In this document: one piece after another, positions 11,914 through 14,011 of the stretch
Layout of the letters: the number at the start of each line of letters is the position of its first letter
Position numbering within the stretch: the first letter of the stretch is position 1
Assembly: GCA_016872015.1 (NCBI GenBank)
Contig: VHBK01000012.1
Location: forward strand, 1-35,314
Direction: 5' to 3'
Source: Nitrososphaerota archaeon
GTDB taxonomy: Archaea; Thermoproteota; Nitrososphaeria; Nitrososphaerales; Nitrosopumilaceae
Length of the DNA stretch: 35,314 nucleotides
The notes under the pieces: model-generated
Told to the model about the DNA's origin: nothing
Databases searched by the model: none
What the model saw: the letters and a program-made list of their open reading frames with translations, nothing else
Position numbers and translations under genes: made by a program

Positions 11914-12459
11914 TTATTTCTTCTTTATAGTGAGTGTTTTTTGAATCTCGCTCATCGAGCTGATGAATTTCTGTTTTGCCTCATATTCGTTTGAGACCTT
12001 TACTATAATCTCAGTTGATGACAATAATACATCTTTGACAACTAAAGGTGCAGACAATCCAAGTAATTCAGATAGGAAATCAAAGAGATTGTGGAACTTG
12101 GTTTGATTCTTGTACTGATACATGACTCGCCCGTCCTTGAACATCGGTTTTGGATCAAGTGGAATTACCAGATCTGGCGACGTCATGTCGTTGATGAATC
12201 TTGCAGTGTCTGTTTTGATTGATGTTGACAGCTCCTCTTTTTTTGCCTCTAGATTTGCCTTGGTCTTTTCCAGATTTGCCTGTTGGTCGTCATATTCTGT
12301 TCCAATCATTTTTGCAAACGCAGATTCTGTTGGCTTTTTGAGTGGTATTTCGTGCAGCTTCATGTTTATTATTTTGAGTTCGTCTTCTATTTGCACAAGG
12401 TATTTCCTATTTGCCTTGATCTGGCCGGCAAGTTCCTCAAGATAGGTAAAATCAGACAT
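11914..12459 (-). CDS. coiled-coil protein, likely partner of the adjacent tubulin/FtsZ-like protein
   Basis: The 181-residue product has an N-terminal heptad-rich coiled coil (residues about 5-95, e.g. KANRKYLVQIEDELKIINMK and QQANLEKTKANLEAKKEELS) and a compact C-terminal alpha/beta domain (about 100-178). There is no signal peptide or membrane segment. Its ATG is only 7 nt after the tubulin-like stop codon, and a Shine-Dalgarno-like GAGGG overlaps that stop, so it is translated from the same message. The family is not recognised. The gene order suggests a role with the cytoskeletal GTPase, such as adaptor or regulator; that is inference. Confidence 0.75.
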   Translation of the reverse strand: MSDFTYLEELAGQIKANRKYLVQIEDELKIINMKLHEIPLKKPTESAFAKMIGTEYDDQQANLEKTKANLEAKKEELSTSIKTDTARFINDMTSPDLVIPLDPKPMFKDGRVMYQYKNQTKFHNLFDFLSELLGLSAPLVVKDVLLSSTEIIVKVSNEYEAKQKFISSMSEIQKTLTIKKK

Positions 12460-12466
12460 TATACCC

Positions 12467-13861
12467 TCACTGGCTAAACTGATGAACTACGTCCATTAGG
12501 GATTGTTTGAAATCTTCAGTGGCCATACCCCATCTGCCGTATTCATCCTTGTATGCATCCCAGGCTTCTTCTGCCTCGCGGGCAATCTCTAGCACCTTTG
12601 GCCCTATTGCCTTTGTGTTAACAAGAATTGTGATGTTTGCCTGTTCTTTGTCCATGATTGGAATCTTGACAAATATCATTCTGGAATCCTCTATGTTGAA
12701 TCTCTCCTTGATGAGTCTCTTGAGCAATTCGCGCTCTTTGATGTCAAATTCGCCTTTTACTTTAACCAGTGCACAGCAAGAGTCCTTCGCTCCGCCATAA
12801 TTACGAATATCAGTCTCGTCAATATCGAATAATATTGCATCCTGTTTTTTGTTTAGGTTCTCAATTATACTATCCATGGTGTTGTGCTTGTTGCCAGTAA
12901 TGGTGTTGAGGTTCCACTGGTCTTCATCAGGCAATACAGGTATGACCCATGGAATTGCAAATTTGGGTCTCTTTGTTGCAAGCCATGTTCTGTAATTTGA
13001 CATGTCCCATTCTGTTTCTCTGGCAAATGAAGAAATGAACATAGAGATTGCGTTTGCAGCAATCAGATTCATGCCCTTGTAGTCTTTCCATCCAACTTCG
13101 TGTTCCTTTGGCAGATCATCTATTATAGATGGAATCTTGTCCACTCGTTTTTCATACTTGTGGGCTACTTCGCGTAGTCGCTTGTTTGAAAATAGTATAG
13201 AACAGTCAGAATACTTGATTTGGTATTCCAGATTCATTACTATATTGATTGCAGCTGCTTCCAATATGACTGGGTCCCAGCCAAATTCCGGTAACAACCC
13301 TAGTGTTGCAATTGTTGCATGTTCCTTTGTGTTGCTTCTAATAAATTCGATAAACGAGCAAGCAAAAGAGCTTCCAGTACCACCACCCATTGCAAACGGA
13401 ACGGTATAGCCTCGGACTTGTTCTGGCGATAATGCTGATAATTGTTTTCCAAAGTCCCATTTTTGGGTGACTTCGTTTTTGAATCTAGAGCGTCCCTCTG
13501 CCCAGTTTCTTGCGGCGCCTCCTGCACCATGGATTACGTGCTTGTCGCGCAAGGCAAAAAGGTCCGGATATGATTGTAAAATGAGATTTGCAGCCCTTGG
13601 GTCCAAGTCCACTAGCAATGCTCTTGGAATTAGTGGGGTTTCGCCACCAGTATATGCACCTGGGAATCGAAGGATTGTGCTTCCGTATCTTTTTAGGATT
13701 CTGGACTCGTCTTTGGTGTCCTTGAGAACTGGCTTTAGTGGATCGGCGCCAACATCAAGCAGCAGCCTACGGTAGGATTCTGCTCCAAGACCAATTCCAC
13801 AGTGACCAAAGCAGGTCATCAGAACTGGTGCTGGCGGTAGTGGGGCGCTTGCTTGTGCCAT
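12467..13861 (-). CDS. tubulin/FtsZ superfamily GTPase (thaumarchaeal FtsZ-like / artubulin-like)
   Basis: 464 residues. The P-loop-like T1 region is CFGHCGIGLGAESY (about 17-30), tubulin style. PRALLVDLDPRA (79-90) resembles the tubulin T3 segment PRAVFVDLEP, and GAGGAARNWAEG resembles the following tubulin segment. The tubulin/FtsZ signature is present as GGGTGSS (159-165). LFSNKRLREV resembles the tubulin H7-start DNEALYDI. In the T7 synergy loop, EWDMSNYR (284-291) keeps one Asp but has Asn where the second catalytic acidic residue is expected, so GTP hydrolysis may be weak. Thaumarchaea are known to carry a divergent FtsZ-like protein, and some carry artubulin; which of these this is needs a tree. 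TTTAA at 13884-13888 gives a leaderless start at ATG 13861. Confidence 0.9.
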   Translation of the reverse strand: MAQASAPLPPAPVLMTCFGHCGIGLGAESYRRLLLDVGADPLKPVLKDTKDESRILKRYGSTILRFPGAYTGGETPLIPRALLVDLDPRAANLILQSYPDLFALRDKHVIHGAGGAARNWAEGRSRFKNEVTQKWDFGKQLSALSPEQVRGYTVPFAMGGGTGSSFACSFIEFIRSNTKEHATIATLGLLPEFGWDPVILEAAAINIVMNLEYQIKYSDCSILFSNKRLREVAHKYEKRVDKIPSIIDDLPKEHEVGWKDYKGMNLIAANAISMFISSFARETEWDMSNYRTWLATKRPKFAIPWVIPVLPDEDQWNLNTITGNKHNTMDSIIENLNKKQDAILFDIDETDIRNYGGAKDSCCALVKVKGEFDIKERELLKRLIKERFNIEDSRMIFVKIPIMDKEQANITILVNTKAIGPKVLEIAREAEEAWDAYKDEYGRWGMATEDFKQSLMDVVHQFSQ

Positions 13862-13888: not shown

Positions 13889-14011
13889 CTTGGTCTACTA
13901 AACAAAATGAAGCGATTGCTTGATCGTTGTAGACATGTTTCATGAATGGAATTACGCATAAATGGATTTAACCATTAAGTATGAATTATCTGTAGTATAC
14001 GAACTGTAGAA

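Follow-up and report, generated by a model that had tools for sequence, protein, structure and literature searches.

Prokaryotic tubulins such as BtubA/B, with bKLC, and plasmid TubZ, with TubR, have an accessory gene in their operon. The tubulins closest to the gene studied here are the artubulins, proposed earlier as possible ancestors of eukaryotic tubulin. Published trees place artubulins apart from CetZ (PMC9871819, PMC13394414), and their synteny with CdvB and dCMP deaminase in Nitrosarchaeum was published by Yutin & Koonin in 2012 (PMC3349469). Asgard AtubA and AtubB likewise form a pair in an operon (PMC13394414). In tubulin the catalytic acid is alpha E254, located three residues past the Asp of the T7 loop (PMC13394414). 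An engineered human alpha-tubulin, E254N, shows no GTP hydrolysis, catastrophe-free growth and stable microtubules (PMC8764682), and nucleation by E254N tubulin is poor (PMC11893814). The FtsZ-like protein of N. maritimus, Nmar_1262, carries AGKAGSA instead of GGGTG and did not polymerise in a yeast test (PMC3684127).

The window analysed here, a stretch of 35,314 nucleotides, contains a GTPase gene followed by a coiled-coil gene. An earlier note had described both open reading frames from the sequence alone; they were found on the minus strand at the coordinates it gave, and its motifs GGGTGSS and EWDMSNYR were confirmed. The GTPase family is already known; what is new is the invariant coiled-coil partner and the T7 position that reads Asn almost throughout the family. 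The relevant features are as follows.

12467-13861, minus strand: tubulin/FtsZ-superfamily GTPase, 464 aa, assigned to artubulin from its PF00091 match and its identity to artubulin loci
11914-12459, minus strand: coiled-coil partner gene, 181 aa, directly 3' of artubulin
12460-12466, minus strand: intergenic spacer GGGTATA, 7 nt, after the stop codon TGA
13772-13807, minus strand: T1-type nucleotide loop GHCGIGLGAESY (residues 19-30; alignment A4)
13367-13387, minus strand: T4 GTP-binding signature GGGTGSS (residues 159-165), kept across the alignment
12989-13018, minus strand: putative T7 loop and start of H8, ETEWDMSNYR (residues 282-291), placed by motif pattern, spacing and the invariant Asn265
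13919-13935, minus strand: element TGTCTAYAACRATCAAG, conserved in 44 loci and placed some 75-85 nt 5' of the artubulin start

Family of the GTPase

Membership of the tubulin superfamily, as the earlier note had claimed, is borne out by the Pfam family Tubulin (PF00091), whose score of 54.7 bits exceeds the cut-off of 33 and which is the sole Pfam match of the window GTPase. Neither Tubulin_2 (PF13809) nor the Tubulin C-terminal domain was matched in this protein, nor were the FtsZ families of Pfam and NCBIfam, and at T7 it reads EWDMSN and not the FtsZ pattern NxDxxD. Among solved structures, Asgard tubulins match the GTPase domain best (E 7e-22), followed by gamma-tubulin; judged by these best solved matches, from Asgard archaea and eukaryotes, artubulin is nearer to tubulins than to FtsZ. 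Sequence similarity to tubulins ends near residue 235. A Foldseek search with the AF2 model of artubulin, itself of low confidence (pLDDT 51), ranks full-length tubulins at the top. The nucleotide-binding motifs appear intact from the sequence: G19, H20, G22, G24, G26, A27, E28 and Y30 of the T1-type loop are invariant (alignment A4), and (G/A)GGTG of T4 is kept in 71 of 71 sequences.

A scan of GTDB genomes yielded 57 artubulin loci, all but one of them 72-97% identical to the window GTPase, and most are named Nitrosotenuis, Nitrosotalea, Nitrosarchaeum, Nitrosopumilus or 'Thaumarchaeota'. Compared over the full length, nearly all loci, with copies from Nitrosotenuis, Nitrosotalea and Nitrosarchaeum among them, are 76-97% identical to that of the window, and the identity between genera agrees with the approximately 79% given for Nitrosotenuis versus Nitrosarchaeum artubulins in PMC3835317. 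In Nitrosarchaeum-type loci CdvB (Snf7, PF03357) and dCMP deaminase adjoin artubulin; neither is found in this window. The artubulins described in PMC3349469 and PMC3835317 thus belong to the same family as the window GTPase by identity, tubulin-type motifs and the Nitrosarchaeum neighbourhood. Because the identity range and the Nitrosarchaeum synteny fit, and the FtsZ-like gene sits elsewhere, the window GTPase is almost certainly an artubulin, a member of one coherent family and not of an unrelated one. The earlier note was therefore right about a tubulin relative, but the divergent FtsZ-like gene that it also brought up is another locus.

Among 400 sampled genomes of the class, artubulin was found in 16 genera from several families; outside the class, none was detected at E<1e-8 among 397 sampled genomes of the phylum. 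Two matches in IMG/VR, considered as possible viral artubulins, were rejected as phage proteins whose only common feature is the string AARNWAE. One locus labelled Gammaproteobacteria bacterium (BMAH01000059.1) is of the Nitrosotenuis type, with 96% identity, and is probably a mislabelled bin. Some genomes (G112, G374 and the single assembly that holds L043 and L046) contain two artubulin-partner pairs, which are paralogues or reflect mixed bins.

The coiled-coil partner gene

The partner gene lies directly 3' of artubulin in all 53 public loci that extend past artubulin. Four of the 57 loci were left out of this count, as they end no more than 45 nt past artubulin or within it; in 52 of those counted the partner is complete or almost so and has the orientation of artubulin, and L005 breaks off inside the partner start. 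Artubulin is carried by 86 of the 400 sampled genomes of the class, and the partner is present in every one (86/86). In 85 of 89 artubulin matches in genomes the partner follows at 6-25 nt, measured from one profile edge to the next; the remaining four matches lie at contig ends or in fragments. The linkage is kept in the outlier L055 (52% identity for artubulin, 32% for the partner), as well as in families f4 and f9, where artubulin identity is about 51-56%. The +1 neighbour is constant, whereas the -1 and +2 neighbours of artubulin change by lineage. The trees of the two proteins show largely the same groups, with faster evolution in the partner. For both genes dN/dS is 0.02-0.04, synonymous changes far outnumbering amino-acid changes, so both are real genes under strong purifying selection. 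In our view the two proteins are very probably linked in an obligate functional partnership. Adjacency across genomes of the class, which the earlier note had named as a check, thus holds everywhere it could be assessed, and its proposal of an operon with a dedicated, unnamed coiled-coil protein of no known family is supported.

The SD-like GAGGG that had been noticed ahead of the partner is present in the window, where it overlaps the artubulin stop, but other loci carry different spacers, some of 2 nt, or a 4-nt overlap. Since the spacer sequences vary between loci and the spacing stays short, the constant feature is close gene coupling and not the GAGGG SD. Between two Nitrosotenuis subclades (that of the window and that of L006 and L008-L010) the partners differ by about one-third and the artubulins by only about 8%, a contrast sharper than inside each subclade. 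A thaumarchaeosortase gene (TIGR04297; 10961-11878, minus strand) begins 35 nt beyond the 3' end of the partner, in the same orientation, and could be co-transcribed with the pair. Only Nitrosotenuis-type loci have this gene order.

Structure prediction, also suggested earlier, was successful for the partner (mean pLDDT 93.9) but poor for artubulin. The partner model consists of a helical hairpin (residues 4-51 and 60-92), which supports the coiled-coil call, and a C-terminal alpha/beta domain (93-181). The C-terminal domain and the region of the hairpin tip (residues 36-63) are the most conserved parts of the partner, and helix 2 is the least conserved. The partner has no family match in Pfam, NCBIfam or PADLOC; its best Foldseek matches were not significant (E 0.13 in the PDB, 0.096 in BFVD), and profile searches of the PDB returned unrelated coiled coils only. 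An ESCRT-III/Snf7 identity was considered and rejected: PF03357 gave no match and is absent among the 25 families listed for 53 members, and the C-terminus is predicted to form an alpha/beta domain instead of Snf7. A defence role or membership of another known family was likewise discarded after database and PDB profile searches without a family match.

PMC3349469 lists a 'conserved hypothetical protein' among artubulin neighbours, and PMC9871819 mentions that coiled-coil genes without a name occur close to tubulin-like genes of archaea generally, so the partner may already have been drawn in earlier papers. In the open-access literature covered, we found neither a description of the partner as conserved or obligate nor any comment on the Asn in artubulin T7.

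Upstream of artubulin, the conserved element TGTCTAYAACRATCAAG is accompanied by two further conserved blocks, CTTTACAATCTTGCACT and TTAAAGAGACAAG. It has one match at two or fewer mismatches in its own genome and is absent from Nitrosarchaeum-type loci, where CdvB is the 5' gene; it is probably a promoter or operator. A 16-codon leader peptide in this region was rejected, as codon positions are equally variable and premature stops are present. No RNA structure was found in the upstream leader, and no Rfam family was found anywhere in the window.

T7 position, proposed mechanism and alternatives

The Asn noticed earlier in place of a catalytic acid in T7 proved to be a property of the family. 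The T7 segment ETEWDMSNYRTWL is found in 69 of 71 artubulins, and Asn289 (codon AAT, 12995-12997) in 70 of 71, with Ser in the remaining one, among sequences down to about 51% identity. D286 and Asn265, the expected base contact in H7, are invariant across the 71 sequences. From the motif pattern, the spacing and the invariant Asn265, we infer that Asn289 would occupy the position of alpha-tubulin Glu254 and FtsZ Asp212. The AF2 model, at pLDDT 51, has two helices joined by a short loop in this region, comparable to H7-T7-H8; in the profile comparison of artubulin with FtsZ the aligned region stops short of T7. By analogy with the engineered mutant, we also infer that artubulin may be a natural E254N-like tubulin.

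We propose that the gene pair encodes a two-gene cytoskeletal module, in which a GTP-bound, slowly or non-hydrolysing artubulin polymer is controlled by the partner, and we consider the chances of this proposal to be even. Artubulin would bind GTP and assemble head-to-tail into tubulin-type protofilaments. The T7 loop of the next subunit would then bring Asn, not Glu or Asp, so that GTP hydrolysis at self-interfaces would be very slow or absent. Because the T7 Asn would block or slow hydrolysis, the filaments would be stable and not dynamically unstable, comparable to those of alpha-tubulin E254N; for such a hydrolysis-impaired polymer, we find belief and doubt equally justified. Since E254N tubulin nucleates poorly, a dedicated nucleator or stabiliser would be useful, and the partner, whose alpha/beta head carries a helical hairpin, might replace hydrolysis as the means of control by nucleating, capping, cross-linking or anchoring the polymer. 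A direct regulatory action of the partner on the polymer is predicted with a confidence that is evenly balanced. The more far-reaching idea of a cytoskeleton built from a natural tubulin that lacks a GTP-hydrolysis switch, the whole family being GTP-locked by the T7 Asn with assembly and turnover left to the obligate coiled-coil partner, is offered tentatively and may well be wrong. In broader terms, and as the earlier note had supposed, the pair may be a cytoskeletal or positioning module; cell shape, positioning and division with Cdv are its candidate roles. No polymerisation, GTPase, binding or other functional study of artubulin was found in the open-access literature.

Several other explanations have to be weighed. 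Artubulin might form a dynamic, hydrolysing polymer whose active site is completed by E282, E284 or D286, or by a residue supplied by the partner. These three acids near T7 are invariant or nearly so, and the geometry may differ, as the segment from Asn265 to D286 is, by hand count, one or two residues shorter than its counterpart in tubulin and FtsZ. Yet the known tubulins and FtsZ depend on the acid three residues past the Asp, human tubulin E254N is inactive (PMC8764682), and Asn289 is fixed, as though selected; we therefore regard a hydrolysing polymer as rather unlikely.

The proposal of Yutin & Koonin that artubulin acts with CdvB/ESCRT-III in division, which would make the coiled-coil gene secondary, agrees with the Nitrosarchaeum-type loci, where CdvB (PF03357) is directly 5' of artubulin as in the literature. 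However, CdvB takes this place in only 7 of 57 loci, all from one clade; the -1 gene is NreA in Nitrosotenuis and a SHOCT-domain gene in most others, with still other genes elsewhere, and PMC3835317 reports no CdvB beside the N. uzonensis artubulin. Outside that one clade the division proposal loses its Snf7 link, and of all the neighbours of artubulin only the coiled-coil gene stays constant. A division role of this kind thus seems improbable.

The partner might also be a passenger with a tubulin-independent job, kept adjacent through operon structure. In family f2 (L098-L101), where artubulin is missing, a full-length partner adjoins a radical-SAM gene and the gene for a protein of about 94-110 aa that has no Pfam family, with archaellin close by. 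Family f3 (L102, L104-L107 and L109) keeps only the second helix and the C-terminal domain, again without artubulin, and in most genomes read this half-partner has the RNase P Rpr2 gene on one side and Nep1 on the other. In the home family, the interval from Rpr2 to Nep1 was searched for an ancestral paralogue of the partner, and none was found. The linkage of 53/53 and 86/86 despite the turnover of all other neighbours argues against a passenger, as does the finding that home-family genomes that lack artubulin yet match the partner profile (G087, G108 and G195) hold broken remnants of the partner only; no clear artubulin remnants were seen beside these. A mere passenger is accordingly quite improbable. 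Given these artubulin-less copies, whole in f2 and halved in f3, the partner probably either serves, or once served, a purpose independent of tubulin, or survived the loss of artubulin. The orphan copies are what weighs most against a role tied to tubulin alone, and the accessory protein of the earlier note thus accompanies artubulin wherever this could be checked but is not strictly bound to it.

A gamma-tubulin-like or other non-polymerising, GTP-bound scaffold that templates something else would fit with gamma-tubulin being the next-best solved match after the Asgard tubulins. In the genome, however, no other tubulin partner was found, its sole other PF00091 gene having a degenerate GTP motif, and we assign this scaffold a similarly low probability. 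A GTP-bound polymer under the control of the partner remains the reading that we prefer.

Relation to known systems

The genome of the window has only two PF00091 genes, artubulin and an FtsZ-like gene on contig C31. The latter encodes a protein of 351 aa with AGKSGCA in the place of GGGTG and corresponds to the FtsZ-like protein of N. maritimus. That the window gene could itself be a divergent thaumarchaeal FtsZ-like protein of the Nmar_1262 type, with which it has a superfamily and an archaeal host group in common, is practically excluded by its GGGTGSS motif and by the shorter AGKSGCA protein, with a degenerate GTP motif, encoded separately on contig C31. In f2 genomes, those members of the tubulin superfamily that were found are of the FtsZ-like type; among the f3 genomes tested, most have FtsZ-like genes, two additionally have true FtsZ, and one has no PF00091 match. 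The f3 genomes G109 and G121 (L118, L119, L136 and L137) have two true FtsZ paralogues (GGGTGTG, NIDFAD) plus the FtsZ-like gene. At L120, L129 and L132-L135 (f2 and f3) the FtsZ-like gene lies directly 3' of a MiaB-type radical-SAM methylthiotransferase gene.

The invariant partner provides a first concrete handle on artubulin function and bears on the role of tubulin in ammonia-oxidising archaea, of which the studied N. maritimus divides by Cdv. If true, a natural E254N-like state would mean that tubulin filaments are usable without dynamic instability, and it would bear on whether hydrolysis-driven dynamics are basic to tubulins or a lineage-specific elaboration.

The artubulin literature stresses the Snf7 neighbour, whereas the constant neighbour in this analysis is the coiled-coil gene. 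Asgard AtubAB (PMC13394414), the nearest solved structures to the GTPase domain, are an alpha/beta-like tubulin pair, whereas artubulin is a single tubulin with a T7 Asn and a non-tubulin partner. Alpha-tubulin E254N (PMC8764682, PMC11893814) and artubulin would both have Asn at the T7/H8 catalytic position, an equivalence drawn from the motif and not from structure; E254N is, however, an engineered mutant in an alpha/beta dimer, whereas the Asn of artubulin is natural and fixed across the family. BtubA/B-bKLC and TubZ-TubR offer a works-like analogy to artubulin with its operon accessory gene. Pfam and fold searches gave the artubulin partner neither the TPR repeats of bKLC nor the DNA-binding winged helix of TubR.
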